NCBI GenBank assembly: GCA_003194525.1
Contig: NBIV01000353.1
Location: 1-57,622, forward strand
Source of the DNA: Gracilariopsis chorda
Taxonomy: Eukaryota > Rhodophyta > Florideophyceae > Gracilariales > Gracilariaceae
Direction: 5' to 3'
Length of the DNA: 57,622 bases
Position numbers and translations under genes: made by a program
Part shown: piece by piece, positions 5,276 through 35,378 of the stretch
How the letters are laid out: each line of letters opens with the position of its first letter
Position numbering within the stretch: position 1 is the stretch's first letter
The notes under the pieces: model-generated
Database searches by the model: none
The model's input: the letters and a program-made list of their open reading frames with translations, nothing else
What the model was told of the DNA's origin: nothing

Positions 5276-5567
5276 AACACCGGTTTTCAGACTACGACAC
5301 GCTAGCGTGGGAGATGGTAACGCTGATGATGCTGATGCTCCAGAGGATGGGGTACATGTGATGGGACTTCAAGGGGATGACCGACACTTCATTGAGAACG
5401 TGCCTTACGAATTCTTTGAGTACGTATTGGGAACGCCATTGCCATTTCCACTGTGCATTGGAGAAGTATGGGAAGCGGAGAAAGAACAGGGCAGTGACTT
5501 CTTGAGTTCAAGCCAGTCAAGTAGTGCAACGGAGTCTGAAGAGAGCGAGGGCGAGCGTTCGGAGTAA
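5276..5567 (+). pseudogene. C-terminal fragment of an acidic protein cut off by the Gypsy LTR
   Basis: A reading frame enters directly from the LTR edge at 5276 and stops at 5567. It encodes about 97 residues ending in a Ser/Glu-rich acidic tail (SSSATESEESEGERSE). The ATG at 5232 lies inside the LTR and cannot be the ancestral start. This is probably the 3' end of a gene whose 5' part was separated by the insertion. The gene family was not recognised. It converges with the recombinase gene on the other strand. Confidence 0.45.
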
Positions 5568-5973
5568 AGACCGCTACAAGGTTTCCTGAAGACCATTGAA
5601 AATTCCTTCAAGCCCATTTGGTTTAACGCCGCTACTGTTTTCAGGTTCACGTGGACAGTTATGCTATCGTGTCGAAGAATGACATGGTTTTCACCCCCCT
5701 GATGACTACACCTCACCCGGATTGTTCTGCACTACGGCATGGCTCTAGAAAGGGACTGCAACCCACACGGATGTCAACATCTAGTGTAATGCTAGCTACA
5801 ATCCGATATGTAAACCGCGGACATGGTGTCTCCGTAGGTACGCAGTGTACCCCGCCGGCCACTTGCACCCACATTTTATGTGGGCTTAACCGCCAAATTG
5901 TGACGCAACGCATGTTTCTAGAGACTGTACTCTTCTCCCATATACCCGCGCTGCTATACTATTCCTACAAACT

Positions 5974-8618
5974 TCAATCGTCTTCCTCCTCTTCCTCGTC
6001 AGGGAATACGTTTTCAGCGTCATCTCCACCATCAAAACCACTGTTGGAGGAACCACCACTACCGAGCACCCCTGTCTCCTTGGTCTTCCTCCTCACCTTT
6101 CGCTTGGGGGACGGTACTTCCGCATCACTTTCACTGTCATAGTCGAATAGACCCTTCGGTAATCTACGACGTTGCTCAACGCGTCGTCTCTTCAAACGCG
6201 ATTCCCCAACATCCACTTTATCATCATCATCTTCGCTTTCTTCTATCTCAACACAACCTTCGTTCTCGTCACCCTCTTCGTTCATAAAAATGCTGAAGTG
6301 CTTCGTGAACAGCTTCATCGTCTGCTTGAAGTCCTTGGAGTATGCAGCCATTTAAGTACCTCGCAATTGCTCAACTGACGTGTTCATTTGCTTCGCTACT
6401 AACCCCAAGAACTCGTCCTCCGACAACTTGCTGTCCCTAAACATTCCTTGTCGGTAGCTGTGAAGCATGGAAGTTGCGTAGCTTGCGCGCAGGGTCATTG
6501 CCGTGACGTTGGTGAGCTTTGGGTCTACGCCGCGCATGAATGCACGGATGGAGTGACTCACATTGCTGGGATTCATGTCCTCTCCTGTTCGAGTATGGAG
6601 AAGAAGTGGCTCGTTCTTTCGGAAAACAGCAGACGGCTTAACGTGCCTGCGGCTGATTAGGATCGGCCTTATCACGTCCACGTGAAACGTAATGTATGGA
6701 AGCACGATGACTGGGAATGCAACATCCGGTATGTAGAGGGCACGAGCATTCTTCTCTCTGAATGTCTTCACACTGACAACTTCCTGGGTAAGCTCATCGT
6801 CTCCGTACACCGCCTCTAAAACCTTTTGGGGTGGACATTGTAGACGTGCGTACGCTTGGGGTCTCTGGCCACCACCGCTGAGAGTCAGCAAGCCCAGAAA
6901 GTTAAGGCACCACTTCTGGATAAGTCCACTCGTCTTGGTCAACATCCTCTCCGCGGACTCAGGCCCCTTCTTCTCCGCCCTTTCAAAGTAAGAGTCAATG
7001 ATGTCTTCCAGAACGGCCCTTGCCAAACGAATACCCTTCTTGGTCTGGCTCTCGGTTACGATGCGGTGCTCTTTGACGCGGCGATCGGCATCCTGCTTCT
7101 GTCTGGCGTCCTCCCTGTACTTGCACTTTGCCGCATTGAAGGTGGTTGTTAGATACAAAGCCACTCTTGCGATCCGAAGACGGGTTGCATCGTCATTGAA
7201 CTTAAGCGTCGCATATTTTGTGACAATATGAAGAGCGTTGCACTTCGATGGCACAGTTGAGGACGAAGAGGTGGTAATGAAATGGTTCACAAACACTTAG
7301 ACGAGGTCTTCTTTGGCCAGTTGTCCGAAAAGTGCCCTTTCCTTCCACCCATCGTAGCGGCTCAATCGCTTGGAACTAATACACCAACGCAGGAACTGGC
7401 CCACAATCGACTGCAACAGCTTGAAACTGGATCCGGATGCCATATTCATCAGCTCCTTTGTGCGATATCGAAGCGTATAGATTTCATTCAGGTCAAGGCA
7501 GTTGTACCGGTTGACTTTGAGTCCGGAATACGCCGCAGAACCCTTTCCCACACACCGATTTGAGTTCTTCATACGAGCGTCGTCACTGGAAAAGAAGCCG
7601 GGGTCGCGAGCTACTGCAAGATCCACCAAACCTTTCCACAACCCCTCTGGAGTATCAGGCTTGTTGCTATTGTCACCCATCGTGGCTTGAAGTGAATGAA
7701 TGCGGAGCAGTGCCGCAGCGTTACCCCGGTTACGTGGGCTTTGAAAGATGTCAGCCCTTTCATGGAACAATTCGTTGTTCCTATTCTTCAAGGTGCGCTC
7801 CTGCCTTTGTAAAATTTCTCGAAGATCGACCTGTGTTTCTTCAGCACCCTCCTCCCCTCTGGCTGTAACATCTTGACTGACCTCCTCCCCTCCTCGTGTT
7901 CTTCTTCGTCCAAACCCCGCTCAGTATCAACTCCGTAGACATCCAGCACCGCTTCCGTGTTGTCTAAACCACTTCCTTCCTCTGGGGTCTCTGCAACTAC
8001 CTGAACAACGTTCATGCCAGCTTGCTCAACACCTTCCACCTCCTGTTCATCTTCCGATACCTGTTTTCCGACTTCCTGCGTCGAGAACTCCTCGACGTTC
8101 TCAACGACGACCCCAACGGGTACTACGGGGTTCCCAGTGACCTCTTCTGCGGTATGAGTGGAGCGTCGTACTTTCCTTGGAGCACCTCCCCTCGCACTTG
8201 CAGCATTTGCCTTTCGGGCTTTCAGATTCGAGATCAGGAAGCGGGTTGGGCTTTCGGATTGTGGATGGGAGTTGCCCTTTGGAACAGCATTGCCCTTCTT
8301 GGCATCTGTGGAGGTACTCTGAGCTTTGGATGCAAACCTCTGTGGTGCTTGACGGTGGCGTACGGGAGAGTTTAACGGCGCCGGAACGCCCCGCTTTTTC
8401 GTCACAGCCTGAGCGGCTGTGAAACCCTGCGGAGGTTGGTCCGTGCGAAGTGCAGATGGGCCATTCGTACTGCCTTTTGCAGTCGGTGGACGTTCGTGCG
8501 TCAAAGCGGCAGTGTCGGCGGATGTACCTTTCTTCCGGTACACGGATCGGATTGGTTTTGCGAGCCCACGGCGTGAGGAATCGTTGGATTCGAGGTGATG
8601 GAAGAGAACGCTCTTCAT
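5974..8618 (-). pseudogene. Tyrosine recombinase with acidic nuclear-type tail, broken
   Basis: One minus-strand gene of about 880 codons is spread over consecutive frames. The ATG at 8618 begins a low-complexity N-terminal region. A one-base shift in the G-rich tract 7881-7895 moves to the frame that carries the rest. A SAM-like core-binding segment (about 7500-7150) is followed by catalytic box I (GGGQRPQAYARL) and a box II-like segment (AMTLRASYATSML) in which the His of the usual HxxR is replaced. The C-terminal tail is acidic with basic clusters such as RLKRRRVEQRRR, suggesting nuclear import. In-frame TAA stops occur at 7297-7299 (EDLV*VFVNHF) and 6352-6354, the second close to where the catalytic Tyr is expected. 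Family members break and rejoin DNA via a 3'-phosphotyrosine. The exact subfamily (Crypton-like, Starship-captain-like or other) is not settled. Confidence 0.72.
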
Positions 8619-9066
8619 GTTGTGTATCAAGCTGACGGCGATGAATACGGAACAAACTGGCGACGGTGTGTTGTTTTCGTATGCACCTATTCGGATAGCG
8701 GTGATGAAACGGAATGACGGCAGCTCTGTGCACCTCAAGACCCGGTTTGGTAATGCTTCAAAACTAAAATCCCTCCCCTCACGTCTGGGATCACCAAGGA
8801 GGTGGGTACACCAGCGATGCGTCGTGAATCCCTCGCGCACGCGTACGTCACGCTTTATCGATACCACGCGCGCAACTGTCTTCTCTACAGAGCCACACAG
8901 GTCACTCAAACACACGCTGTAAAACCCCTGGACACCCCTTTCGGCCTTCCACCCCACACTGTCAGCTCTAAAGGTAAGGCAAAGTGCGTACTATGTGGTC
9001 TAGGGCACACGACGGTGCACGTGCCACATGAACTGTGTAATTTCAGAGAGCGCGGTGTTACGTAAT
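8619..9066. other. 5' flank of the recombinase gene
   Basis: The recombinase frame stays open upstream of the ATG at 8618 to about 8957, but with no further ATG that I trust. No TATA box or other promoter element was identified with confidence. Confidence 0.3.
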
Positions 9067-9105
9067 GTACAGTGCGCTGTCAATAAAAAAGGCAGCGCAC
9101 TGTAC
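9067..9105. repeat. Perfect 13-bp inverted repeat with 13-bp spacer (lox-like)
   Basis: The arms GTACAGTGCGCTG (9067-9079) and CAGCGCACTGTAC (9093-9105) are perfect inverted repeats around an A-rich spacer. They lie about 450 bp upstream of the recombinase start codon. Tyrosine recombinases bind paired 11-13-bp inverted arms, though usually with a 6-8-bp spacer. A transcript hairpin is the alternative. Confidence 0.55.
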
Positions 9106-9540
9106 TTTTGGTAATATGTTTCTACGCTGGCGTTACCTGTAAACCCCTTCCGTCACATGACAGCACGATGTACATTGCTCTACGGTCAAAATCTCGATGT
9201 ACGCATGTACTTGCAGTATCGTTTTTTTACATGCCTTCTTCTCTCATTCAAATGACACGTTTGTCACCAGCGCAGTTTAGTGATAGCTTGAAGTGGGGGA
9301 ACGCTTCCCCCATTCCGAGGAACCTCAGTGTAGCCTGTACCATAAACAATCCACACCTACAACATAATAGACTATCGTTCCCGGTCCGTAGAGACCTGTA
9401 CAACCTACTAATGTATTTAATTAAACTAGTTTCTTCCTAAAACCAACCTAGAGTAGAAAAAGGCAACGGGAAAAAAACATTCCCCCCCCACACACGCACA
9501 CATTGCGCAGCGTGCATGGCCAGTGCATGCTGCAGAATGT
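9106..9540. other. Noncoding, no recognised gene
   Basis: No convincing coding sequence. At 9500-9540 a hairpin-forming sequence shares the core CATGGCCAGT with the adjacent tRNA-like element. Confidence 0.4.
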
Positions 9541-9621
9541 GCGTGTGTGGAGAATCGAACCCATGATCACCGGTGTGGTAGCACAGTGGGCATGGCCAGT
9601 ACCCACTGCGCTACCGCAGCG
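9541..9621 (-). repeat. tRNA-derived (SINE-like) element
   Basis: On the minus strand, an A-box match TAGCGCAGTGGG is followed about 45 nt later by a B-box-like GGTTCGATTCT, the two parts of an internal RNA polymerase III promoter. The D-arm region has grown into a hairpin (TAGCGCAGTGGG with CCCACTGTGCTA). The acceptor stem does not pair well. It is therefore more likely a tRNA pseudogene or the head of a SINE than a working tRNA. Confidence 0.45.
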
Positions 9622-9844
9622 ATTTTCACTTGGCAAAACACCTCAGCTTTGCTCTTCTTAAAGCAATTAGTGGCGGTGTAATGCGTTGTAAAGCGCCAGC
9701 TGCAATTGCGTACGTGTGCTGCGTGTCACCGCGTGTGCTGCGTGTCATCTGCGTGTGATGCGTGTCACTTGTGTGTAATACGTGTCACAAGCCACGGGAC
9801 AAGCCTGGGTGGGTGGGTGGCTCGTGCCAGGTGGCAGCGGCCGG

Positions 9845-10092
9845 TTGCCGTGGTGGAAACCCCACTGTTACCCGCGTAAAACCACCCGTAAACTGAAAAC
9901 GCACCGTAAAACCACCGTAAAACCACTCTATCAATATAATCCCACCGCAAAACCTTCGCAATCCTGAAACCCCACTGAAAACCCTTTGAAAACCGCACAA
10001 AACCACAGAAAACCTGAAAACCTCGTAAATCCTGAAATCCTCCTATATCTATAAAATCCTATAATCCTACAAGACCTGAAAACCTGAAAACC
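9845..10092 (+). repeat. Degenerate short tandem repeat based on TGAAAACC
   Basis: About 250 bp built from variants of AAAACC, GTAAAACCACC and CTGAAAACC at spacings of roughly 8-16 bp. It does not code and no ends resembling a transposon are visible. It introduces the C/A-rich motif that recurs on the plus strand as far as 22.5 kb. Confidence 0.6.
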
Positions 10093-10094
10093 TA

Positions 10095-11250
10095 ATGTCC
10101 ACGAAACCATCCCCCATTCGTAAATCCAAAAAAACATTGGTCTCTATAGCTATAGACGTGAAAACCCTAAAATCTTTCTTTTTCCATTATTTTCCCTTTT
10201 TTACACTCCTCTTTTCACTGTTTTTTCCAATCATTCTTTTTTCTCTCTTTCTCTTTTTTTTGTTTTTCTCGGCCTTCCTTTCTTCTTTACCCCCTAAAAC
10301 CCCCATTGCTCCTAAAAAACCCATATCTTTCCACCCGTCTCGCTGCACATGCACAAAATACCGCAAACGCTTTACTGCGCATGCACATACACGTGTGTGC
10401 TCTTGCGCACGCATGACTCTGTGCACAATCTCCAACTACCTAATTTTCTTTTTTTTATGTTTCCTTCGAACATTTCCTGATTTTCGTTTTTTCGATCGTT
10501 TTTGGCCTTTCTCAAATATTTGCCTATTTTTAATTTTTTCTAAAATTTCCCGTTTTTTTATTTGTTTCTTTTTTTGCCATTCTTGGTTGGTTTTTTTTGG
10601 TTTCTACTCTCCAAAATCCCCGCAAACTCCTTCGTTCACGCCCACACCCGTAAAACGCTCTACAATGCACATACACATGCATACATGCGCATACATGCCT
10701 CCACACCTGCACACTTGCTCTCACGCCCACACACCCCCACGCTCTCGCACACTTTCGCAACCATCCCCATCAACCGTACATCCGCAAATACACGTGCATA
10801 TACGCGGCACTTTTTTCTTACTCCTCCCAATGCTTTGCAAATTTTTCGGGTTTTTTTTGATCTTTTCGTATTTACTCCTCTTTTATATATTTTTTCATGA
10901 CTTATTCCTTTTTTCATTTTTTTACATTTCCCGATTCTTCTTCGTGTGCAACACCTCTTTCCTCGCACAAACCACTCCCTACACTCTCACATGGGTAAAC
11001 CGCTCTACAATGGACACACACATACATAGAAGCACATACATGCCGACACACATGCACATTTCCCCACACGCACACACACGCCCTCGCCCTCGCCCTCGCA
11101 CACACTCGCACACACGCGCATACACGCACAACCATGGGCAAAAAACCCCTTAAACGCACACACGCCCATACACGTGCCTACTCGCCACCACACGATCATC
11201 CATAATCACTCACGCGCCTAAACGCGCACACACGCACCCGCACGTCCATG
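10095..11250 (+). repeat. Pyrimidine-rich and CA-rich low-complexity DNA
   Basis: T/C-rich blocks (10180-10340, 10440-10620, 10810-10970) alternate with CA/CATG-rich blocks (10340-10435, 10635-10810, 10985-11250). A long open frame across it translates to runs of Phe, Leu, Ser and His-Thr and reflects composition rather than a gene. The alternating C/T then CA pattern occurs about three times, suggesting a duplicated unit of about 330-350 bp. Confidence 0.6.
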
Positions 11251-11475
11251 CGCATCCACGCATGTGGGCGGCCGCTAGGCATGCAGGCGCCTGACGGTGC
11301 ATAAGCGCTCAAGCACATGGGCATGCATACGTGCAAGTTCTTGTGCCCATTTCGCTGCACCTTGGGTGTGCAGGCCATCGCAATCGGGAGAAAGTGCCCC
11401 GTGTGATGCACTTTCAATAAAACGGCCGCACTAAAACCAAACCCAAACACTGGTAGTTTGCAATGATTCATGTTT

Positions 11476-12345
11476 TCACAATGTTTCCCATATAAGGGTT
11501 TTACATTTCATGTATACATCCTTGCATCGTTCTAGCATCACATTAACGGGGTTCTCTAACCTCTCTGGCACTTCCCTTGCCGAAGCTCTGTTCCCCTTCG
11601 TACTGAACAATGATGGAAACAGCGCAAACAGCTGACTGTTGTTCACGATATGCCAACCCTAATCAACTCCGTCCTGCAAGATGCAGTCTCCAGGAACATA
11701 CTGAATGGGTTTGGGCAGCCTAAACCTAGTAAAACCCCTAATATCCAGAATCACAGCAAGTAAAAACCCCTGTTCTCATGAAGCTTCAAGTGCCGGCTTC
11801 CCCTAGATTTATCCTGCAAAAATTTGCAGCTCCGTATAGCTTGTTCACCCCTTGAAGCATTGTCCGAACTAAATCGGCGTTTCAAGTCCGAAAGACTAGC
11901 AACAACACACAAGCTGTAGTGCCTCTCACTGGAGCCTATGCGAATAGCACCCACGTTATACTGAAGCATTTCCTTAAGACTTCTCCCGCAAGCACTTGAC
12001 TGTTTGTCGTCTTTCTTTTCTATTAGCGTGGTACGCAGTGATACCTTGCACTGGCTAGTCAAGGAGTTTCATGGACCCTCTCCGAAGAATACACTAAAAG
12101 CCCACTCAATGTCAATCACCTACACTTCTTTCGGTCCCTGTAACGATAAATGAATACCATAGCGCACTGAAAACACCATTTCATCATCGAACGACATTAG
12201 GCCTTCTTCATCCATTAATTTTGTATCAATCACAGTGCAGTAGCGCCATATGAAACCCTCTGGATCGTCTTCGGGGTTGCCGTTGGAAAGAAATATGGTA
12301 GAGAGTGTCCTCTCATTTGGGACAGGATTTTAAAAAACCCCTGAA
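11476..12345 (-). pseudogene. Unrecognised decayed gene
   Basis: A minus-strand frame reads as ordinary protein from about 12345 to 11751 across two in-frame stops (TAG near 12124, TGA near 12072). Examples are ERTLSTIFLSNGNPEDDP, DEEGLMSFDDEMVFSVRYG and VGAIRIGSSERHYSLCV. Near 11760 the sensible reading changes frame and continues (ILDIRGFTRFRLPKP, VPERLENPVNVMLERC) through one more stop to 11476. Balanced composition and continuity across the stops argue for a dead gene. The family was not recognised, and the true 5' end is not visible. Confidence 0.5.
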
Positions 12346-14968
12346 TTACAAGTAGGGCGTTAGATGCTTGGCAATGTTACACATGACAGGGTGGGGCTTT
12401 GAGAGTCTGTAAAACCCCCGGATCGTGCTGAAGGAAACCACTGGAACCCTCCCCTAAAACCGTACTGCAACCATCGAGCGAATGTCGCGTACTTAGAAAC
12501 CCATTATAGTTAAGCTGTTAGCGTACAGAGACGTTTTCGGAAAGGGAGGTGGAAATTTGGAATATGGTTGCGCTGCAACACACCCCTTCGACCCTCCAAA
12601 CGAAACGTCTACTCCAACTCCCTGTACTAAAGCCAAAACGTAAATATACGAACAAAAGTTTTTAGCGTAGGGACTTTTACGAAATTCTTCTGCACAACCT
12701 TTCCACGGATCTACGAGTGAATGCAGTACTTGGGCGGTTTTTGTCTAAAAGTCAGGTGCAGTGAGAACTGCTAACGCACCCTTCGGATGCCCAGGTGTTC
12801 ATTGTACTTCGTGTAGAGTGCTCTGCAAGAACAAATCGCATTTATACCTCAGTTAATACTTTTACTCACAGTAATGCAAACTCACGTAAAGCAAACTCTT
12901 CACCGATAGTGCAGTATTGCTAACATCTGCTTCGAACTTTCAACCGGCATTAAACCCACCCAAGCACTTTCCATTTGTAAGGACATATTATCTCCCTTCG
13001 CGCAAAAACTTCTTAGGGGGCTTTACTGAGAGAAAAGGGCTATCAGCAAGAGCAATTGCTTGAGGACAAATAGTTTACGTTGTTCTAGGGGGGTCGGGCT
13101 TTAAAAGCCTTATTTAGTATACGCCACACCACCAATGATGCACACCACCCAAAGCCTGTAATACTACTAAAGCCGTGCATCTGCATTGCAATGCAACAGG
13201 CGGGGCTCTGTACTATAGTCATTAAATTACTGCACTTAACAAGTAAGTTGTTTTGAAGTGCACTGGGTGCTTGGTTAACGGTTACCTGTTTATGCATTCC
13301 CTTACCCTCTCAGATAAACGTGCACTACGGGTTTTCTGGAGGTAGTATCGTAACCAGCTTTCAAGGCAATGACGTTACCTCCTAAAACACAGAGACAAAA
13401 ACCCTCGGTCCATCAAATGCATTACTCCAGAGCCTAAACCTGTTCAAAAAACCCACACAGGCCGGTTTGAGAGCGCTTCTCCATAGGCCGTCGCACTCGG
13501 CATACATACTGCCTCCATGGCGTGGCCCATTGGAAGAGAGCCACTGCTTTGCCAACACACCTAAAGCCAATCCGGTGTCAAGTACCACTGGGTTAGTCTG
13601 TTCTTAAAACATTTGGCAGGAGCGGGTTTTGAGCTCAACCTGAAAGATGGGAGTTGGGTAACCGAATGGGTGTGGGAGCCCGAAACCCCTAGGGGTGCAA
13701 GATAACCAGGCGGGCTTAACGTAACGAATTGGTACTGTTGGTAGTACAGTGCACACGGGTTATAAAAGCCTGAATAGTCTTAGGCAAACCATGATATTGA
13801 CTGTAGAAACCAGTTGGTATCACGTTGAGCCAATAACAACCGCTTAACCATCCATGGTGAGGGAGCGCTGCAGTCACGTTAAGAGTGAGCAAGGCTCAAG
13901 CTCAGTTGCATTTGGCTACGTGGTTTACGTTGAGACCGGTTCTAGTTAAAAACCCCACACGACAGGAGCGGGGTGCCACTACCTATCTAAAATATTAAAA
14001 AAATCAGTAAACTAACTACTCAGCAACTCCAACCCCTAAAACACCCTCACCAATTGGTCCAGTGCGTGTTGCACTTCCCATGTGTTCAGATCTCACTGTA
14101 TTGCAGTTGATTATCGCATCGGGCACGAGTTGCAGCTCCATTAAGGGCTACATGGCAAACGGAAGTGACAATGGCGTCGGTGGAAATGAAAAAAACCCCT
14201 CGGGGCTAAAAGCGCCTCAAGATTAGGCTCAATCGTACAATTTTAACCGTGGGCAGGGTCGACACCATCCTCACGTTGTTGAGCTTAGCTTGACTGATAA
14301 CTAAAGCATTGGAATGCGTATACGTCATAGCATGGGCGTATTGTTGTTCTTGAATATGCCTGAAAACCTCGATATCGTTCCGATGTTCTCAGAGGTACTT
14401 CTTGTCGCTTTTATGGGCTTAGCACCACTGTCAGATGTGTTTGGTGCTTGGCACGCCATTTTTGGAGTTTATACTGTCCAATGTTTTAACTGTGCGTAAC
14501 GCTTCTAAGATGTTCATGAAATCAGTGTTTTAGATTGCAGTCCAACGGCTCAGTTAGTACAGTGGAACGAGTAGGATACTGTACTTGACGGCGCAGGTAA
14601 TATGTTGTTCTAGGATCGCTCAAATGGTTTAAACGTGTCACGTTCTGCGAAGGATGATGAGCGTTTGCATTAATTAATTTACATGGTTCTAGTTTGGGGC
14701 TGCCTTGCCGTTCTTACAGGTATTTGTATGCAATAGTACACTCATAGACAAAAGAGCAGATGCCTACACACTTTTCTACAAGCATCTCCTAAGCAAGCTG
14801 CGCACGGGAACTTGAGGCAGTCTTCCGTCCCTAATCGCCTAAAATGAAGGGCACGGGGTTATCGCGCGTAGCGTTGTGCGTTTGCAAAGTTATAGCGCTA
14901 TTTGCGTCTGCTGGCTTTGCATCGCCACGTGTAGCACCGCTCTACGCAGCTTGCAACACTGCGTGCTG
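12346..14968. other. Noncoding spacer with scattered coding-like fragments
   Basis: No intact gene. Two short minus-strand frames, 13085-13297 and 13382-13588, have protein-like composition and may be further remnants of a gene upstream of 11476-12345, but homology could not be assigned. The plus strand repeatedly shows AAAACCCCT or close variants (for example 12334-12342, 13682-13690, 14174-14182). Confidence 0.35.
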
Positions 14969-15059
14969 TGTCAATGAGCTTTAGAGTACAAAACGTACAT
15001 AAGAGCGAGATGTGCGAGCTCACACAGTAAACCAAGGGAGTTTGAGTCTTCCTCTCACA
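14969..15059 (+). repeat. Copia 5' LTR (91 bp)
   Basis: Begins TGTCAATGAG and ends CTCTCACA. It aligns without gaps to 17474-17564. The shared core ACGTACATAAGAGCGAGA probably contains the transcription start region. Confidence 0.83.
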
Positions 15060-15071
15060 GGTTATGAGCCC
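15060..15071 (+). other. Copia primer-binding site, half-tRNA type
   Basis: GGTTATGAGCCC begins directly after the LTR. Its complement, GGGCTCATAACC, matches the anticodon arm of initiator methionine tRNA (CAT anticodon). Several Copia elements prime from a cleaved initiator tRNA instead of its 3' CCA end. Confidence 0.7.
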
Positions 15072-15182
15072 AGCGCTGCACACAACTTGTGACCCACCCT
15101 TTGCACCTCAGTTTGTACATCACAACCCCTCAAAACGCACGCAGAGAACAGACTAGCGCGTCACGTCCAGAGGGAGCACACC

Positions 15183-23608: not shown

Positions 23609-23718
23609 ATCTGTTACAGAGTTTCCCACGCTCCTAAACTCATCGCATTATCCGTTCTCATTTTTGAAAACTCAGTTGAACATAGAACAGCAGAATGCAC
23701 AACTAAAACTTAAAACTA

Positions 23719-26700
23719 TCATCTTTCGCCAGTGTCTATGTTCTCCCCTAAGGCCTCACTTAACTCCCTTTCAACCGCACTAACCGGATCGTCCTCAAGC
23801 ACAACAACCTCTTTATCTAAATCTCCTAAAACCAGGTCTTCTTCTTCTCCATCTCCAACAACACCAGTGTCATCGCCTGCACCATACAACCGGGTATCCT
23901 CCTCCACAAACTGGGGCTTGAAACCATTCTCACGATGTACGGCATCTGGAAGATCGTACCCTTCAGGGACTATGTACATGTGATAGCGGAAATTCACGCC
24001 GTCCATATTGCTGTCTGCTCCCCCGGCCCCTGCGTGGAAAACATCACCATGCCCGACGAATATGGAGAAAGGTGGAACTAACACCTTCGTAACCACCATC
24101 CCTTTCGACACATTTCGCAAACGTTTCCAGTCGGTCACTACGATTTTGTGACTTCCTTCACATACCCAGATTGGAAACGAGTACTCCCCGGCAATCATCA
24201 TGAAATATCCGGGATTTGCTCCTTCCGCCTTCTCTTCTACAGACAGGGCCCGAAAGTCTGTGTGCAGAGTCTGCCGCATGCACTGTCGAGTAGTAGCTAA
24301 CACCCGTCCACGAGTTTTGGGGGCGTACGTTTTCCTGGTTTCCGCTCTTCGATTGTTGCCCACGCGCAACGCTGTCATAACTTGACCCAGACAGGCGTCC
24401 ATCATTGCCCTCCGCTTCACTACCCAGTGTGTACTGGGGTCTTCTTCCAAAGCGTCCACAATACCAGCGCGGGTGGTAGTGAATCGACCGTCCCCCTTCG
24501 CTCCTTGTTCTATATCACGCTCTGCATGTCCACTGTTGATTATCCAGGTCCACCTCTTTCGATTCTCCTCACGGCGGAGATCCGCTTGCTCCGTTTAGTT
24601 TTGGCGGAAGAAAGCCAATACAGATTCCGCACTATCCACATCCTCACTGGGGTTTGGGAGCACTTCAAACTTCCTGTCAATAGTAAACCCGGGTAGAATA
24701 CAGAACCCCTTTTCGTTCAGTTCTGCACGCTTCTCCCCAAAGTATTCCAAAGCCAGATAGTCCACCTTCTTCGCATCCAAGTACAATCGATCGTAAGAAC
24801 TCAAGTTGTCCGTAGAAAGTCCAGCCGCTATAGCCATTTCACTAATGAAATCACCTCCAAGTATATTCCCCTTCATCAGCCCTGACTGTTCGTGGCCAAG
24901 CATCGCGGCGTGGTAAAACAACGTGTGATGAATGTAATTGAGGTCACCTGGACTCAGAGTTTCCGCCCGATGTCCAGGTGGAAGGTGAATACATTGCAAC
25001 CACGCTCCAACATTCTGAATAGGGTTCTCTGCTTGTGGCCAAACACTGGGCAACATAATGCTGTAGACGCACCACTCTGGAAGTGGGTTCTCAGTATTGA
25101 ACGGCTCACTTCGACTTAGAGTAGACGGCCATGCTGTCGGCAGTTCGTCATCGAATCCTTGCGCCGACTGTTCATTTGTTCCTGTCTCGTCCTCGAATTC
25201 AACCGATTCGTCTTCCGAATCCAAGTCCATATCGATTTCTTCAAACCCTTTCCGGAGCAGCTGGAGCAAGTCATTGTCCTTGAAGAAGTTGAAAAACAAC
25301 GTCAGGCTCATACGTTCGCAGACGTTGAACTGTTGCAGCAGTCAATATCGCTCCACCTTTCTTCCTCCGTATGTTTCTTCTCTCCGTCCTGCGTCCCGAC
25401 TCTGAACTAGCCGCACCCGCCGACGAAGAACGACTGGATTTCCGCCTAGTGCTCCAACGTGCAGCACTTGATTGATCAGAACCAACTGCAGGTGTTCCAC
25501 TCTCAGCACTGAAGGCAACACTAGCGGGCGGTGTAGATGGTTTGGATCCCCCCTGGCTTTCAGGCACACTGCCGGTTGTACCCAACCTAGAAGTCCCGGT
25601 ATTAACAACCGACGTCACTGGCTCCCCGATAGCATCTGGCTGCGAAACGGAAGCCTTTTGCACGTCCGGCTCCACACGAAGCTCTGGAATCCAGTTCTCC
25701 AACTTCCCCTTGAACAACGCCACAGCTCTTATTATGACGGAGCCCTGATTGCGAGGATTGGGAACTTTCCTAAAATGGTTCACCTGTTCTACAGCAAAGT
25801 CCCGAACTGTTGTCTCACCAGACACAGAGGCAGACATCCGAAACGACTGAGCTAAGAACGACTCCATTTCAACCTCAACCCCAAGTGCCATTCGCTTCAT
25901 CTCTTCCAGGAATTGTAAAAACCCTGCTGTAGAAGTACGATCGTACCATTTCGAACCCACCTCGGATAGAGGGGCCCTTGGGACCGACGTAGAACATCAA
26001 GCAGTTCATCGCAAAAGTAAACTCCAGCGGTTCCATCCTTAACAGCTTGTCGGAGGACATATGCGTGATACCCACATTCGAATATTGCGCACCAAACCGC
26101 TCGGAAACATCCACCAACATAGGATTGTTAGCAAGCTGGAGCGCAATTTCTGATATGCGACGCAGCTGTCTTTCTTCAATCTTCTTGGTTACTGCAGAGT
26201 TTTGAAGGGCTCCAATTACCATCCCAACAGTCAGTTCACCAACAACCACGCCGAAGACCACATAAAGAGAGTTAATGATACTCACTACTGAGTGAATACG
26301 GTCCGAAAACCGCATTCTCAGTACAGACGATGCGGTATCATTCAGAAGAACTCCAATTTCCACAATCTCATGCGACGTCAGGTCCTTCCCGTCCGGTCTC
26401 GACCAGCTGAGAACTCGAAGCGATTTCAGCACCGCATACCACCTTCTTTCCTTGATCTTCCTCCTGAACATGGCAAGTCGACGATGTCGTCCATCGACGA
26501 GGTCTGGAGATACAATTATCCGCCCATTCTGAACACACGCTTCCAAAGGTCGCCCGTTCATCCGAATGGTTACACTCATCAACCCCGCCGACTCCAACAA
26601 ACCCTTTCGCTCGAGCTCATTGTCCAGGCTCTGGACATGCTTCTCTTCAATTCCACGAGGACTGTGTTCTGGTAGTCGTACTAAATCCAGATCCAAAACG

Positions 26701-27649
26701 AGTATCTGGGCTTGGTAGTCCTGCAGACGAATGGTGTCCTTCGAAAACTGTGTGTCCACCTGAAGAGGTTCAACCACATCGTCCTCACTATACAGCGTCC
26801 TATCATTAGACTGACCCAGAACTTCAGACGCGATCTGAACTTCATCCGAGTCACTACCCAAATCGTGGGCTAACTTCACACTCCCCCTACCTTCCTCTGC
26901 AACAGACTCAGGAACAGAAATGGGTGTATCATCTTCAGATACAGCACCTGCATCTTCCGTAGACTTCCCACCCTGACCAGTACCCACGCCCGATAAAGAG
27001 ACGGACGCCTGGCTCTTGTGAGGCGCCACCTTCTTAGCGGATACAACCCCGTCCCCTAATGGTGTTCGAACGCTTGATGTGTTCTTGACACTAGCCCTCG
27101 TGGGGGTAGGTGAGGGATAGAACCGTAGCCATCCATCCTCCGTTCGCTTGGCGTTGTAGCTTCTGAGCCGGGCAGCGGAACGGTTTTCGACAGACGTGTG
27201 TTGCACGATACGGTAGGTAGCCGTCGGCTTCGGGGGGACTGTGTCGTCGACCGAGTTCCTCGGGCAATCGCTGTACAGCGCTCCTGACTTCGGCTGCTTG
27301 TACCAGACGCCCCTGTTGAACGAGGAGAAGGTCGAGGGAATCCTCGGGGGCGCATTAGCTTCAGGTCCCAAGCATACATTCCATAAAACGTCATCCTGGA
27401 TAAATGCTTCGGAGGGGGTTCGGTTCCTTTAAACGGGTATGGATAGGCCTCCATGTTGTTTTCTATTATGGTGATTTTGCTCACCACAACCAGATCCTCT
27501 CCGGGTTTTGCACACGCAGACAATGGATGTCCGTGGAGAGTGCGGCGAAACTCCCCTTCGGCCTCAAACACTGTAGCGATCCCAACGACATCCCCGTTCG
27601 CCAGAAGCAGAGAAACCGACGCCCCTGGTACGATTGCTGATGACGACAT
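23719..27649 (-). pseudogene. Large ParB-like plus 2OG-Fe(II) oxygenase protein, broken
   Basis: A gene of about 1,310 codons from ATG 27649. A ParB-like domain (about 26700-26445) carries VDGRHRRLAM, resembling the GxRR box of ParB/Srx-fold proteins. Ser/Thr/Glu-rich linkers follow. The C-terminus (24460-23950) has LHTDF (HxD), GHGDVFHAG (distal His) and NFRYHMYIVP (2OG-binding Arg), the order of 2OG-Fe(II) dioxygenases such as phytanoyl-CoA hydroxylase or TET/JBP. Lesions are one-base shifts near the G5 run 27414-27418, the G4 run 25971-25974 and 25271-25311, plus TAA 24595-24597. Readable protein continues across each lesion. ParB folds bind DNA or hydrolyse nucleotides; 2OG enzymes oxidise bases, proteins or small molecules. 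The pairing suggests DNA binding or modification, which is inference. Confidence 0.68.
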
Positions 27650-27971
27650 GCTCGTGTGTGGATTTATTCCAGAACGGAAACGCTTGAGGATAGGCGCAGA
27701 CGTATGGCGGAATGTTTCGAGCGATGAAACGATAACGCGTAGCGTGCTTAGAACACGCTTTACTAACCCTTAAGCGGTAGCGGATGGAATCACGCAAACC
27801 CCTGAATCAACAGCCCACGACGGCACAGTACAACAGTCGCAACCATTCCCTCCCTTACTTTACGAGACCCTTCTCGGAAGGGGCGCCAACCGCACTATTT
27901 TATCATTTCGAATACGGGCTATTTTCAATACCCCCATTTTTCGAATTTTTGGGACACTTTCCCATAATGGT

Positions 27972-29348
27972 GTGTCGAGCGACAGGCCCGGTCGTGCACG
28001 ACAGGAATGAGTTCCTGTCGTGCATGGCCAAGCCTGTCGCTCAACACAATATCCCCCAACAATAAACTCAAAACAAGGGGCCGACGGCGCTAGGCGCAGG
28101 CACACACGTGTCGGGTAACGGCCAACTCCTACACGTATGTGCATGCGCCACGCCCCATGCGCATCAACATAAATATTTTTCAAATATTTCGGCCAGCCGG
28201 GTGTGTCGAGCGACAGGCCCGGTTGTGCACGACAGGAATGAGTTCCTGTCGTGCACAACCGGGCCTGTCGCTCGACACACCCCCCACCTTACTTAAAGCA
28301 AAAATAAAGGCGCGGGCAACGGCGCTTGACACAAACCCACACGTGTCAGTTTGCATACAACTCTGACACGTATCTATATGCGCCATGATGCATGCGCTTT
28401 CCCTGAAAAAATTATTTCAATTTTTTGGGCCGCCAAGTTTGTCGAGCAACACGCCCGGTCGTGCACGACAGGAATGAGTTCCTGTCGTGCACAACCGGGC
28501 CTGTCGCTCGACACACCCTCCCTCAAAAAATTATGTCAAAACAAGGGCATGACCAACACCGCTTGGCGCAGGCACCCACGTGTGATAGTACTGACACCAC
28601 TGACACGTATTTGCAACGCCATGCCCCTTGCACACTCTTTCAAAAAATATTTCCAAATTATTTGGCCACCAGCTGTGTCGAGCGACACGCACGGTCATGC
28701 ACGACAGGAACGAGTTCCTGTGGTACACGGCTGGGCCTGTCGCTCGACACAATCCCCCACGTAAGTAATGCAAAAATTAAGGCGCGGGCTACGGCGCTTC
28801 ACACAAACCTACACTTGCTACTCTACGTACAACACAGACACGTATGTTCGCATTCCCTCAAATACTATTTCTTTTTTTTTGGGCCCCCAGCTGTGTCGAA
28901 CGACACACCAAGTCGTGCACGACTGGGCGTGTTGCTCGACACACACAACCCCCCCCCCCCCCCCCCCCCCCCGAAGTGAATGCAAATATGAAGGCGCGGG
29001 CAAGAGCACTTGGCACAGTCCCACGCGTATTAATATACGTACAACTATGATACGTATGTACATGTGCCACGCCTTTTGCACACTATTCTCATTTCATTGA
29101 TATGTTTTGGGATCCGATTTGTGTTCAGCGACACAGCCTCTCGTGCACGACAGGAAGTCGTTCCTGCCAAGCACGCACGGGGCTGTCGCTCGACACAACC
29201 CGTGCTATCCATGTTCTAAAATATAGTATAAAAATTGGGAGAGTTTCGAGGTTTTAAAACGTATATGGCGTATAGTATTTGTATTACAGCGGTCGTGCAC
29301 GGCAGGAACTGGTTCCTGTCCGCCGAGAACCGAGCTGTCGCTCGACAC
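27972..29348. repeat. Seven-unit tandem array of long palindromes
   Basis: Seven palindromes lie at 27972-28047, 28201-28280, 28437-28516, 28675-28750, 28893-28943, 29121-29196 and about 29279-29348. Spacing is about 230 bp, with the last interval shorter. Each starts GTGTCGAGCGACAGG or a variant, is centred on GCACGACAGGAATGAGTTCC or a variant, and ends with the inverse CGCTCGACAC. The spacers between units are also related: CACGTGT...ACACGTAT followed by an AT-rich box and TTGGGCC. It is thus a satellite of about 230 bp with a cruciform-capable core. The fifth unit lacks the central AGGAATGAGTTCCT and a C24 run follows it. The array fills the gap between two divergent large genes, one encoding a ParB-like protein. 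Confidence 0.93.
28201..28280. repeat. Perfect 38-bp-arm palindrome, best unit of the array
   Basis: The left arm 28201-28238 and right arm 28243-28280 are exact reverse complements around a TGAG loop. Exactness over 76 paired bases, while sister units have drifted, implies recent homogenisation or selection. Confidence 0.95.
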
Positions 29349-29499
29349 TACAAAGCAACCCCTTACGCCAACACCCGTTCGTTTTGAATCACCTGCATTT
29401 CAAGGTATACCCTTTTATACCAGCTTTAGTCTCATCTCCGACAAGAACGACGCATTCTCTGCTACCTCCTCCGTCGATTCGATCTAAAAACCCGTCAAC

Positions 29500-32400
29500 A
29501 TGCCACAATATGCAAGCACAGTGTACGCATTTTTGGAGTTACGTGACAACTATGCCACTGAACGTACACCGGAAGACCACCCAAGGGACGTGAAATACAA
29601 GATCATTGTCGAGTTGGCTATAGCAACACGCGGTTCGTCAGCGTCTGCCATGGAGTTATGCAAACAGGCAATTGGTTCCTCCGATATGTCAACGTTTAGA
29701 GACGTGGAGGTACTAAATGCCTTAACTAACACGCACTCGCCCAAGCACAACGCTTTGCAACAGGCCTTTCAAATCGCACGGTCCCTAGATCAGATGGATA
29801 ATGAAGAGGATGTTCGTGTCAAGGACTACTACCGCTTATGCCAGGCGCAAAGGTTTCCTTTCACTATACGGTATTTACTTGCCGATATCGTTAGGTCTTG
29901 TGTGGATGGAATGAGTCTCAGAAGAAAAGGGAGGGACGAAGTCACTACCGAAAGAGCGACACGCTTTCAGGTTCTTCTATATCTGAGCATGTACGTTCTG
30001 TTAACTCAGCGATTGAAGGCTCTCTCGAAGAAGCGAAAACGCTCTGGTTCCACCGACGACCTAACACAACCTCAGGCAGTCCCTTTAAAGAATTTCGGGG
30101 ATCAGAACTGCAATCGAATTGCATATGGCGTGCAACAGGTTGTTCGTTCTTGGGACAACTTCGCCACATATCTTGGTTTCCACAACACCGAATCGATGCT
30201 AAGCGCGTATCTATCCTTTAACGGTTCATCTTCACTTTTCAAACCTCTAAAGACTCGCATTAGAGGGTTCGTACCGCTCAGACAGTCTTTCTCTCTCATC
30301 GGAGATATAACCCCCAGAACGACATCATCGGGGGTTGATAGCCACGCCTACGCACTTCTGCAAGATGCTGACGAGGGACTTAGAGCTCTGGCAGAAGAAT
30401 TCCTCAATGACATTGTCACGGTCATCTCTCACCCACGCCTGTACGAAAAAGGAGTTGAACAATGGTTACTACTATTGGAGTTCCTCCCAGACGTGAAGCG
30501 GGCTCAACTGGACCCACAGCATACCCGACATCGTTCGTATCCACAACGATTCGACCGCCTAAGTTAGAATCTTTGGGCTCCAATCCGAACAGCTAGCGCC
30601 CAGGTACCTCCTACCTCTAGTGGTGAAGGACAAACCTCAACTGTTCACACGTTGGAAGTCATTGACTTGGTCACCAGTCCCAACAATGAACTGGAGCCAG
30701 ACACGCCTTCTGAGCAACCTCTAAGACCACAAGACGCAGACAGCGAGGCTGCTTCAAACGTTCAGCCAACGACTTACCTCCCTTACGACGTGGAAGGTAC
30801 TGGTGTATTTCTGCCAGACGAAGACGTCAGTGGTACGGTTTGGAAGGCAATGGAGATAATGGAGCAGGAGATAATGAAACACTATGCCATGTACTCTACT
30901 CCCTACGACGAACTCCCTCCAGTCCACAATACTCTCCGCTCCACAGATTCCGTCCCATATGAAGATGCCCAGTTCGCTTTGTTGGATGCTCCAACGTTCG
31001 TTTGCGCTGCGGCGGACAGAAGGAACAGTGAGTACGACGCCTTAACCGTGGCTGAAATGAAGGGCGTTGTGAATAATGTCGCTAACGTTCTGTAGTGCAC
31101 GCCCTTCTCAAGGGGGGGGAATTCCAGGCACTGGTTCATAATATCCGATACATCGGGGATGGCACTTACTACACTGTTATGAACAGGAGCAATGCGGCGA
31201 CAGTGGGTATACACGTGGTGCACGGCATAGCCGGAATGCGCCGTGGCAACGGCTCGCTCACGTGTCACACGGGTGGTGGTACTGTAGTGGATACATGGTT
31301 AGAAATATTCTATTTATTTATTTATTTATTTAGTTATTACTGGGTAGTCTACTGTACTTAGTGCAGCGGCAACCGCCGCTGCACCTCAGTAAACTTCCCC
31401 AACAAGGGTGTTCCTGCTTAGAATCTTCCCGAAGAAGGGTGTCTAACCAAGGACTTGGCTCCGAACATTCACGCCTTCGGCGGTACTCGACTCCACCACG
31501 GAGAGGTATCCCGTTGCATACGGTTTGTTCAACCCCCTTGCTCGCTTAACAGAACCCATTTCTGGGATACCAGTCTACTCACAGTTGTGGCTTCGCCGTG
31601 TATACGGTTTCACCCGGCCCTGCCGATATCCATCGAGTCCCTCTTGTGACTCGCTTCCTTTTCCCTCACTTCCCTATTCCTTTTCCTTTTCCTTTTCCCC
31701 TTTTTGGGTAGCCCCCGCTATCCGCGGCTCACACCGACTCATTGTCGTGTGCGCCACCGTTTGGACTCGTGCCTCCTACTTGGAGCAATACACCGTGTGG
31801 ACGGAGCTTCTCTGGTTTGCCAGCTACCCCTTCCTACGCAAGTCGTGAAGGCTGACCTCGGCTTACAAACGACCTAGTCGTGTCATCCCTGGAAGGGCTC
31901 TGCTACTGCGTTCACCTCGTGAGAGGAAGATCCCGAACGTCTTCGTGGTGTTCTCCCGTCGCCGGGCATTGCACCATACGTTCCCCGTGAAGGAGGCCAT
32001 TTCGTTCTATTCTGTTCCGTTGAACTGTTCCTCAGTTGGCGGAAAATGTTCCAAAACGCAACTTTGAAGGATGAGGACGGCAACGATGGACCAGTTTTTA
32101 AGGTGGATGCTTGCCCACTTCACTTCATCCGAGGGTCGGGTAACATCACAGCCGCACCTGGAAGAGCATCTGAAGAACTAATGACAATTGTGGAATACGC
32201 CGTTCACGGGGTAAAGGTTGGTGCTTCCCGAGAACAGGAACAATCTCAGGTGAACTACATGAACTTCAACCACGTATCCTCCACGGTTGCTGTTTATAAA
32301 ACGTTATAGATAACGTACCGACCTTGGACGTCAATGGGACTCTCATGTGGTCTAAATTGAACCCGAGTGGCCAATTGATGCGTGAAAGGGTTCGCGCTGA

Positions 32401-33499
32401 ACAGAAACCAATTCGTCTTGCGAGGGAACTTATAGCGCGGTTCTCCAACCCGGGTGACACGGTTGTAGACCTCTTTGCTGGTACTTTCTCCACCGCCCTC
32501 GCCTGTATGTCTTTCAAGCGTGGTGAGGGTCGTAAGTTGGTTGGGTGCGAAAAAGATCCGGCATGTTTCTACCACGCAAAGCATGCTGCCATCAAATTCT
32601 TCTCACGGCTCATTGCTGAAGACATCGCAAACGTCACGGTAACTCAAGGGGTTTTGGACGCTGCTCGATTAGTAAGCAATTACTTCCAGACCTACACTCG
32701 CCCTTCAAAAGTTTGGACCCCACCCAAACACTTTCCACATTACCAGAGATTCCCACAACATATTATGTTTCATTGCGCATCTAAATGGAACGACACCCTG
32801 TTTGCTTGCAAATATATCAACACGGAATTGTCTCAATGGCTGGCACAGTATCAAAGCGCTTTAAAACTCATGGATGCAATGGACTTACATGCTGTGGAAG
32901 CTACATCCTCTCGTCTGGTCATCGCAATGTCTACTATAAACCATCCTAATGCAGGCATTGGGCTGTTCGCCGGAACAACTTTCACGCGAGGGGAGATAGT
33001 TTGTTATTTCTACGGTACACTCGTCTACCACGAACTTTCTCAACGCCAGGAGATCCACAAGACATATGGAGAGGGGCCCCTGGGTGTAACCCCTTCACAG
33101 TTTCGCTCGTCTTCCATGGAGGTTGATGTCTCTGGCCCGGATTTTGCCGCCTTGGTTGGTCTCAACCGGGACAAGAAGCGAACTTCAATCTTTATTTCGC
33201 CGGCCCCTTTCTGTATTGGTGGCTACATCAATGACCCAAGGTACATTGAGGGCGATCTGGACATCCAAGCTGTCCGCGACAAGTATAAAAAGAAAAGAAC
33301 GGAGAATGTAACCTTGGATAAGCACAAATTGGCTTCCATTCGAAACAGGAAGCAGCTCGAAGATTACACTATTATAACGATTCGTGCAACTCGCCGGATT
33401 GAGCGTGGGGAAGAGTTGTTTTTATCGTACGGTGTAGAGTACTGTTGGAAATCAAACCTCCTCGACAGCAGAACCAGCAACACCTCCAAAGCTTCGTAG
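29500..33499 (+). pseudogene. Amino-methyltransferase plus SET-domain protein, broken and LTR-interrupted
   Basis: A gene of about 1,100 codons from ATG 29500. The first about 355 residues match no family I know. An MT-A70-like methyltransferase half follows: ALLDAPTFV replaces the usual DPPW motif IV at 30985-30996, then YDALTVAEMKGVV and LLKGGEFQALVHN. After an inserted LTR come motif X (QKPIRLARELI) and motif I (NPGDTVVDLFAGTFSTALA), the permuted order of beta-class N6-adenine or N4-cytosine methyltransferases. A SET domain (about 32900-33450) has GIGLFAGTTFTRGE, GGYINDPRY and RRIERGEELFLSYG. Lesions: TAG 30565-30567, a shift near 31090, LTR 31283-31976, and an A-run shift at 32298-32301. 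SET domains methylate protein lysines, so one polypeptide may have carried DNA and protein methyltransferase modules. Confidence 0.72.
31283..31976 (+). repeat. Diverged Gypsy-type solo LTR inside the methyltransferase gene
   Basis: It begins TGTAGTGGATACATGG, like the 913-bp LTR family (TGTAGTGCAATACATTCC), and ends near GCATTGCACCATA, like that family's GATTGCACCACA. It contains a TTTA microsatellite near its start and internal blocks shared with the LTR at 47352-47980, such as AAGATCCCGAACGTCTT. Coding sequence of the methyltransferase is recognisable on both sides. No matching 5-bp duplication was found, so the exact ends are uncertain by several bases. Confidence 0.65.
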
Positions 33500-33858
33500 T
33501 CCAGTGAGCACCAAAATCCAGTTACCCCTTATACTCCTCTGCTCCACTGTATGGGTACCGCCCGCCTGCTAACACCTGGTCAGAATATGCATTACGTAAT
33601 TAACATCCCCTAAGATCTTAGCCACGTCTTCAGTCCGTTCATTACAGATGTTAAAGCACCCCTCATACACCTGCGCAATTGCACTATAATAAGCAAACAC
33701 GTTACCGCGTTAACCTGTTGCAGATCCCCATTACGATCTGCTCAGTACATCTTGATCGTTCACACTTCCCCTCCTCTTAGTCATCCGTATACCTCAGTGA
33801 GAACATTGTGGAACCCACTTCGACTATACCCTATAAACTCCTCTCCACCCTCATCGTA
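33500..33858. other. Short intergenic region
   Basis: Separates the SET gene stop from the zinc-finger gene. No element was identified. Confidence 0.3.
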
Positions 33859-34590
33859 ATGGCAAACGCAACGCTTAATATGGCTATCCTCTCGTCTCCT
33901 GCAACTCCGCAGAGTCTGCCTGTCAACTTTAACACCGTAACACTAGGCGTACATGAGTTTCTGCACGTTATGGTTTGCGTGGACTGCCAACTGGCGTTCC
34001 ATTCAAAGCGCTCGATGCAATTCCATCTCAGACATGAACCGCATTACATGGAACCCCTTGAAGCCCAAAAGGCAACAAATGAGCTGCATATGGTGTGTGA
34101 AAACACGCGTTTATCGGGACCCCACCCCCTTTTTAACCGTTACGATGTTCAAAACCGAAATGCTCTACAGGACGTACTACCCCCTCTGTTTGGTCTTCGA
34201 ACCGAACTACGTCTCCGATGCCCTGAATGTGGATTTGCCTGGGTGGATACAGCCACCCTCCAAACACATATATCAGAATCCCACAATACGAATATAAGCT
34301 TTGCGCGTAGTGCTGTCCAGAAAGAACTCGACCGGGGAAGATTGCGCGTTCAGAGCGTTTTCCGTGGAACTCATAAACGGTCTTTTGTGGTTACAAATGA
34401 CAACCCAGTGGGCTCTGTTTTACATCGACGGATTCTTATGCTGAAAAGCACACAGAAGCCTACCTCCCACTCAACACCTTCGCACACCGACCACACAAGT
34501 ATCGCCCGTGATACCCTCCCACAAATCGCAAATGACACGCAGCCAGTGTTGTTGAGAACCCCAAATCTCTTCCAATTCGTCCTCTTGTGA
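33859..34590 (+). CDS. C2H2 zinc-finger protein (two fingers)
   Basis: A 243-residue frame from ATG 33859; the frame is open 51 nt further upstream without an ATG. Finger 1 is CVDC followed by HLRH (C-x2-C-x12-H-x2-H). Finger 2, about 80 residues later, is CPEC followed by HISESH (C-x2-C-x12-H-x4-H). Two widely spaced fingers with this layout are found in proteins linked to fungal and protist mobile elements, for example the OrsD/DUF3505 type; that link is from memory and weak. The C-terminus is Ser/Thr/Pro-rich. No lesion is visible, unlike both neighbours. A DNA-binding role is likely. Confidence 0.55.
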   Translation: MANATLNMAILSSPATPQSLPVNFNTVTLGVHEFLHVMVCVDCQLAFHSKRSMQFHLRHEPHYMEPLEAQKATNELHMVCENTRLSGPHPLFNRYDVQNRNALQDVLPPLFGLRTELRLRCPECGFAWVDTATLQTHISESHNTNISFARSAVQKELDRGRLRVQSVFRGTHKRSFVVTNDNPVGSVLHRRILMLKSTQKPTSHSTPSHTDHTSIARDTLPQIANDTQPVLLRTPNLFQFVLL

Positions 34591-34659
34591 CGTCGGGGAC
34601 CCTCTCCGGTACCAAGCTTGATACGGTTAACTTAGAAGTTCACGCTTCAGCTTGATGGA

Positions 34660-35378
34660 ATGGAGCTTGAGATTGCTATCATTGATATGACAACGACTGT
34701 CAGACCTGGTATCAAGTTATATCCGAACTGTAGCCGGCGTGCAACGCTCTTCTATGACACTGACAATGATATCATTGTCCTGGCTGTGACTACGGAGTCT
34801 GGAAGTGTACACATTGAAGTGAGCCAAGGATTAGCTACTGTAAACGCCGTCCTTGAAGGGGCGGAAGTAGATCTAGCTTTGCTAGGCGCGTTCGGAGGAG
34901 CGGTATCCAAAACCGCCTCCTCCGCCGTTACAATTGCAACAAAAGCGGCCATGGATGCTAAGATGGTGGTTGGTCAGGAAGCAGCTGAGACAGAGCAAGT
35001 TACGGTACTGCTTGCAAGGGTATTATCTCCGCAACGTCTGCTTCACTTTCCAAACTTGCTGCGCAGTTCATGGTGATGGCGAAGGTAGCTCTCATTGGTG
35101 GCTTCGTCGCTGAACTTATCCCGGCGATTACGGCAACCATCGACTCCGTCGCAAACCGAGACTACGACTCTTTGCCAAAGATCACTGATCTCACTAGCAG
35201 CGCTGTCGGAAAGACGATTATCTAGCCATCCACGACAGGCGCGTTTACCGTACCCAGCATTCAGCTCAACGGGCCGTTGCAGTTTGGCCTGAATTCGAGT
35301 TCATCCGATGACTCCGATGGCAATGGGACTACTAGTGCTAACATTCGTACCACCAGGAAACGCCGTAGCAAGAAGTAG
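34660..35378 (+). pseudogene. Hydrophobic Ala-rich protein with basic C-terminal tail, broken
   Basis: ATG 34660 begins a frame of about 115 residues that shifts by one base near 35000-35015. It then continues through a hydrophobic, Ala/Ile-rich stretch (VMAKVALIGGFVAELIPA) and an in-frame TAG at 35223-35225 to a tail ending TTRKRRSKK at 35378. Total about 239 codons. An amphipathic/hydrophobic centre followed by a nuclear-localisation-like basic tail is seen in some minor structural proteins of small DNA viruses, but there is no sequence-level evidence for that here. The family is unknown. Confidence 0.5.

Follow-up and report, generated by a model that had tools for sequence, protein, structure and literature searches.

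A probable chromosome-end piece of two telomere-directed mobile elements in the red seaweed Gracilariopsis chorda

The locus

Contig NBIV01000353.1 of the red seaweed Gracilariopsis chorda (assembly GCA_003194525.1) carries a gene for a tyrosine recombinase (YR) beside a set of putative DNA-binding and DNA-modification genes, and raises the question whether these genes form one mobile element or several. A first-pass annotation had proposed a single large tyrosine-recombinase element, or an integrated plasmid- or virus-like replicon. The whole contig of 57,622 nucleotides was analyzed and is referred to as the window; it is contig C353 of a fragmented assembly of 91.3 Mb in 1081 contigs, the others being cited by number. 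Its DNA is indeed mobile and comprises two elements that lie side by side: a YR element with a constant end, and a large multi-copy, multi-gene element that is cut short by YR elements. The region is probably a chromosome-end piece composed of two telomere-directed mobile elements, and the window appears to originate close to such an end.

The YR element and its constant inner end

The identity of the recombinase gene, as annotated at first pass, is supported by a YR fold and conserved residues. An open YR reading frame (ORF) of 917 amino acids is present in C299, and three proteins of Gracilaria domingensis match the YR protein at 43–45% local identity; a relative from that species (P0006) was deposited as ‘angiomotin’ and looks misannotated. 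The Pfam profile PF00589 missed the window YR and found six other places in the genome, with YRs unlike that of the window, and Pfam gave no match to DUF3435 (captain). Foldseek alone yielded nothing below 0.001 (best 0.0099, XerH), and a search of PDB sequences with a YR profile returned two matches, neither of them a recombinase. The second gene of the element, ORF2, matched no Pfam family.

Homology among the YR copies stops at window positions 10167–10175, both in the genome search and in 11 of 11 fetched flanks; the genome search with window positions 5277–22200 scored 13 of 508 candidates. The inner end of the element reads TATAGCTATAGACGTG or a close variant, and its join to the telomere core is TCTATAGCTATAGACGTG-AAAACCC. 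Fifteen junctions were read on the inner side (13 together, plus that of C9 and that of the outer copy of C299), and all have the same order, namely palindrome, GACGTG or a close variant (GGCGTG in C9, GATC in C172) and AAAACCC, with differing sequence beyond. At least one extra CCCTAAA-like unit follows AAAACCC in eight of them (window, C138, C70, C343, C422, C173, C172, and C9), the first of C70 being CCCCTAGAA. The palindrome probably corresponds to the lox-like inverted repeat of the first-pass annotation. A flank common to C422 and C479 (GCCAATGAAGGGGACATTTTCGA) is cut at points about 95 bases apart in the two contigs and is joined to a YR end in each. The fragmentation of the assembly might suggest that such joins are assembly chimeras, but the recurrence of one inner end in one phase across many contigs, together with telomere units at the joins, makes this explanation very improbable.

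A 23-base motif of the inner end had 34 matches in the genome at up to two mismatches, compared to none for a reversed control. On contigs of known length 24 of 26 motifs point to the nearer contig end, and so do all 13 on the eight contigs that reach 100 kb or more, at distances of 0.1–33 kb. Eight contigs carry two or three inner ends, which are always co-oriented; the pair on C247 is spaced by 7.3 kb.

Telomere repeats and chromosome ends

The candidate telomere repeat of the host is CCCCTAAAA, also written CCCCTAAAA(A). A pattern of three CCCTAAA units with spacers of 0–3 bases gave 796 matches, compared to 18 for the reversed control, and among the places listed, arrays of this type start C95, C45, and C9. 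From base 1, C9 consists of telomere repeat, about 100 bases of YR inner end, AAAACCCTAAAAACCCTAAAACC, and a large element truncated within the palindrome array, and we read this start as a true chromosome end. Closeness to contig ends alone is weak evidence, since it is partly expected from the tendency of contigs to break in repeats; orientation, the C9 telomere, and the junction sequences are what counts. According to a review, information on red-algal telomeres is mostly missing or fragmentary (PMC7046594; statements on the literature refer here and below to titles, beginnings of abstracts, and passages of the papers), and within these sources no YR element at red-algal telomeres was found.

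Two elements rather than one

YR inner ends abut the large element at window positions 16966 (C138) and 19973 (C172), and at approximately 28.4–28.9 kb in C9, where the repeated array blurs the exact unit. By coordinates rather than by reading of the junction, the YR end of C685 lies at 12867, with two mismatches in its end motif, and for C379 collinearity points to a likely cut near 11.65 kb. Five contigs (C353, C138, C172, C70, and C435) agree in the order and orientation of their YR, 2-oxoglutarate (2OG) oxygenase, and U-methyltransferase genes; C182 keeps this order, no 2OG match being listed there, and in C474 and C584 the 2OG–YR pair is reversed. This conserved arrangement speaks for the one giant element of the first-pass annotation, but the constant YR end hits the large element at varying points and other sequence elsewhere, which refutes a single element and leaves that view hardly credible. 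The linkage and gene order expected at first pass were thus recovered on five contigs; shared termini were not, and on C173 and C140 the large-element pieces point either away from the YR copies or both ways. The two elements appear linked because both tend towards contig ends, which are probably chromosome ends.

Fungal Starships combine a YR with large cargo. The proposed likeness to them was rejected on the grounds of host, Pfam results, and termini: the host is a red alga and not a fungus, DUF3435 has no match, and the YR is separate from the large gene set, which its end meets at variable positions. A virus-like replicon found no backing either: viral contigs yielded no relatives of the YR, 2OG, or methyltransferase-SET sequences in scans that used few patterns and had limited reach.

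The uncut alleles are informative on how the cuts arose. At four of five junctions (C138, C172, C173, and C9) the cut bears telomere units that are missing from the uncut allele; at the fifth, C247, the uncut sequence already has AAAACCC and is hence uninformative. Telomere units at such cuts are the pattern expected if telomerase healed a broken end and a YR element joined it afterwards. The same region could also be a passive subtelomere shaped by break-induced exchange and telomerase healing, with the YR element as an ordinary DNA transposon preferring AAAACCC and the large element as a Y'-like passenger duplication. Contigs do share long blocks at 93–96% identity, older insertions included, and the large element's inner end is filled with decayed repeats of telomere-like type, such sequence also being what the YR end joins in C247. 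The constant phase of the YR end with telomere units that are missing from the uncut allele, at several cut points, and the joining of the large element's fixed inner end to different sequences nevertheless render a passive subtelomere unlikely.

Inner end, extent, and placement of the large element

A sequence of 2.2 kb from C299 is found again past the helicase gene of the large element in C172, C9, C338, C58, C138, C176, and C236. As a candidate for outer YR-element sequence it was ruled out, since the large element has the same sequence at its inner end. This inner end reads ...AAGTAACACTACTATAAG, and three junctions lead from it to three different sequences, with telomere units following in one (C173). 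In C138, by coordinates, the next copy begins inside the methyltransferase gene directly behind the inner end. Array-like palindromes reappear near the inner end (positions 446–634 of the 2.2-kb sequence), and C9:13002–15517 consists of tandem units of about 0.66 kb at this end.

Summed over copies and including older insertions, the large element has a size of about 31 kb or more, as composed of C685 and the window up to position 34635 and of C172 from there to the inner end. Position 34635 was discarded as its right end, as was 19973 (from C172) as its left end, since other copies continue beyond these points (C58, C379, C138, and C685 in the latter case).

The placement of the methyltransferase copies was assessed for 21 of the 33 rows with at least 51% identity; two C723 pieces and ten rows from contigs whose length is not known were excluded. 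On contigs of at least 100 kb the telomere side is nearer in 13 of 14 copies, marginally so in two (C151 and one on C96), and six of the 14 sit 57–171 kb from the telomere-side end.

Gene content of the window

The features of the window are listed in Table 1.

Table 1. Features of the window, with positions on the forward strand of the contig (., no strand assigned).
Feature	Position	Strand	Remarks
Ty3/gypsy-like retrotransposon, long terminal repeat (LTR) end at 5275	1..5275	-	gag, protease, and reverse transcriptase (RT) from reading ORFs
YR element	~5276-10166		
ORF2 C-terminal remnant	5276..5567	+	convergent with YR gene; open 560-aa ORF2 in C172, C104, C266
Tyrosine recombinase (YR) gene	5974..8957	-	several frames in this copy; 52 matching stretches in genome
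Non-coding inner part of YR element	8958..10142	.	many A4C3-like degenerate repeats (by eye)
Palindrome TCTATAGCTATAGA	10143..10156	.	adjoins fixed inner end; 0.06 chance occurrences expected at ≤2 mismatches
Junction, ...GACGTG then telomere-like AAAACCCTAAAA	10160..10172	.	homology of YR copies stops here
Stretch between YR end and confirmed large element	10173..12866	.	2.7 kb; sharing with other copies not established
Large-element fragment	12867..34635	.	common to other copies; leftmost confirmed shared position 12867 (C685)
Copia-like fragment	15469..17391	+	weak gag_pre-integrs match below Pfam cut-off; common to C58, C379, C685
114-bp tandem duplication	16067-16310		in Copia-like fragment
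Hydrophobic protein gene	18084..19180	-	two frames; C58 collinear through gene
Second hydrophobic protein gene	20018..21196	+	like the first by eye
ORF	22676..23608	+	no family match of weight
Putative ParB-like + 2OG-oxygenase gene	23719..27769	-	several frames in this copy; names from motifs only
Array of ~236-bp units	27969..29350	.	palindrome arms 37–40 nt; between two divergent genes
U-domain + N6/N4 DNA methyltransferase + SET gene	29488..33499	+	single ORF of 1039–1065 aa in open copies
886-bp insertion splitting methyltransferase gene	31092..31977	.	ACGTTC on both sides; absent in 12 other copies compared
C2H2 (OrsD) gene start	33781..34635	+	continues in other copies

The genes annotated at first pass are mostly real. 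The names ParB-like and 2OG, which were given from motifs, received no confirmation from profile scans; the fold model of the 2OG part was too poor for use. The 2OG query has at least 138 matching stretches in the genome, and ORFs of 1349–1417 amino acids in C172, C550, and C204 include the 2OG part. The recurrent palindrome of the adjacent array is a possible binding site for the putative ParB-like protein.

For the U-domain query at least 116 and for the methyltransferase-SET query at least 105 matching stretches were obtained. U-domain and methyltransferase are joined in one ORF of 1039 amino acids in C637 and of 1065 amino acids in four other contigs. C53, C241, C332, and C745 have open U-methyltransferase-SET ORFs of 1065 amino acids with near-equal scores, for which a recent spread is possible. 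Nine further contigs (C12, C32, C34, C37, C64, C144, C232, C253, and C546) carry methyltransferase-SET ORFs of 608 amino acids at 45% identity, again with near-equal scores; the matches listed include neither U nor 2OG in their vicinity, and they apparently belong to a different carrier family. Part of the 886-bp insertion resembles window positions 47823–47972 and another locus in the genome.

To the right of 34635, the C2H2 (OrsD) gene leads in other copies towards a DEAD/RecQ-type helicase, and between these two parts YR-like motifs were seen by eye in C172. The helicase protein matches a G. chorda entry named ‘Bloom syndrome protein-like’, which is identical to C220:35782–37821 in 680 of 680 residues; this entry has a DEAD match (9.9e-15). 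The best PDB match for the helicase is BLM, at an E-value of only 0.02. The helicase has 96 matching stretches in the genome, some of them away from contig ends.

On the left side of the window copy, the YR element is interrupted by the gypsy LTR at 5275. Window positions 4362–5275 recur inverted at 44552–45465 with 97% identity, representing a second copy of the gypsy LTR region, and are also present in C379. At positions 52572–55119 another remnant of a retroelement, including an ORF of integrase-like type, was read by eye, with no match in Pfam. Neither Rfam families nor tRNAs were detected in the window.

Comparison with known systems

The telomere-colonising elements known from the cited papers are retroelements (PMC6431247, PMC10088271, PMC12857005, PMC6681497). 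Similar in its manner of insertion is the TATE/VIPER-like group of kinetoplastids, which according to passages of PMC6681497 encodes a YR, inserts into telomere repeats at one relative position, and forms tandem clusters; the YR element likewise encodes a YR, is tandem, and has a constant order at 15 of 15 inner junctions, eight of them with an extra unit. TATE differs in its hosts, kinetoplastids instead of a red alga, and in its retroelement genes (gag-like and RT/RNase H), none of which was detected in the scanned ORFs, no complete YR element having been read. No RT gene of either element was found in the scanned ORFs, those of the C172 region by the YR gene included, a scan that excludes the 3.6 kb separating helicase and inner end in C172 as well as the outer YR-element sequence. 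A TATE-type YR retroelement with its RT gene in this unread outer part would share with TATE the YR, the fixed position in telomere repeats, and the tandem clusters (PMC6681497), but the lack of an RT family in the scanned ORFs beside the YR gene of C172 and of a Pfam family in ORF2 makes it decidedly unlikely, even more so than a passive subtelomere.

Terminons (Athena) of bdelloid rotifers are described in passages of PMC6431247 as large multi-gene elements at chromosome ends, arranged head-to-tail, most of them truncated on one side by telomere repeats and having the other end next to telomere repeats. Head-to-tail arrays of outer-truncated copies are also present in G. chorda. With regard to telomere repeats the joins are mixed, extra units being present at eight of 15 YR joins and at one of three large-element joins. 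Terminons, however, carry a Penelope-type RT and hammerhead ribozymes, whereas here a methyltransferase-SET gene and a helicase were found, with no RT in the scanned parts and no Rfam match in the window. Fungal MoTeR/FoTeR elements, in the passages of PMC12857005, are telomere-flanked, often truncated, and near helicase genes, as here, but are non-LTR retrotransposons. In the Crypton DNA transposons the YR is the recognized mobility enzyme, as would apply here as well; the passages of PMC3212892 mention no telomere targeting, and Pfam fails to recognize the window YR. A Y'-like or telomere-linked helicase unit would have a RecQ-type gene in repeated subtelomeric blocks; of the 96 helicase stretches here, not all are near contig ends. 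By analogy, the YR element seems to work like TATE, and the arrays look like those of Terminons or MoTeR/FoTeR; membership in any of these groups is not established because their RT was not found in the scanned parts.

Points to be weighed

Several observations weigh against a pair of telomere-directed elements. At seven of the 15 YR junctions the sequence diverges straight after AAAACCC(C), with no extra telomere unit, and two of the three inner junctions of the large element are likewise without such units. Of the inner-end motifs, two of 26 point to the farther contig end (C474 and one on C497, both small contigs), and eight of 34 could not be judged for orientation. The orientation and junction results rest on the close YR family, the distant families of the genome (25–41% identity) being outside these tests. 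Telomere-type arrays also occur internally, for example at C58:225496–225612, and in the copies read neither an outer YR end nor an outer telomere junction was found. For the large element, the pieces on C173 and C140 break the orientation rule, and many of the distant copies of the methyltransferase and helicase genes are located deep within contigs; the methyltransferase copies of other subfamilies inside contigs may reflect a different mode of movement. The model does not account for the cut that ends the window copy on the right at 34635, the 2.7 kb to the left of position 12867 are not established as shared, and the YR-like domain of the helicase gene is without profile support (hhalign 0.7%; Pfam none).

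A model of end loss, healing, and capture

With these points considered, two telomere-directed elements at a chromosome end remain the probable reading, and the following cycle would account for them. Chromosome ends would erode and telomerase would add a few repeats, whereupon the YR protein would recombine a copy of its element, perhaps circular, into the short repeat beside the element's palindrome. Further erosion would truncate the outer side, and the cycle would repeat. The large element may attach likewise, by means of the YR-like domain seen by eye in its helicase gene, or alternatively may spread through recombination between chromosome ends. As a guess, its methyltransferase-SET and putative oxygenase genes would modify DNA or chromatin at the ends.

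A bolder proposal, quite possible but put forward tentatively, is that red algae carry a DNA-only telomere-colonising system consisting of a YR transposon specific for newly healed telomeres and a companion (about 31 kb or more) whose genes include a methyltransferase-SET, a putative oxygenase, and a YR-RecQ gene, a system in which ends are rebuilt by loss, healing, and capture without reverse transcription. If this is true, DNA transposons too can mark healed chromosome ends, apparently without RT, and the YR junctions leave a readable record of terminal breaks. The repeat CCCCTAAAA(A) is offered as a candidate telomere repeat for a florideophyte red alga. Finally, a bacterial-type DNA methyltransferase joined to SET, with at least 100 matching stretches in the genome, makes N6-methyladenine and N4-methylcytosine (6mA/4mC) and histone methylation testable in red algae.

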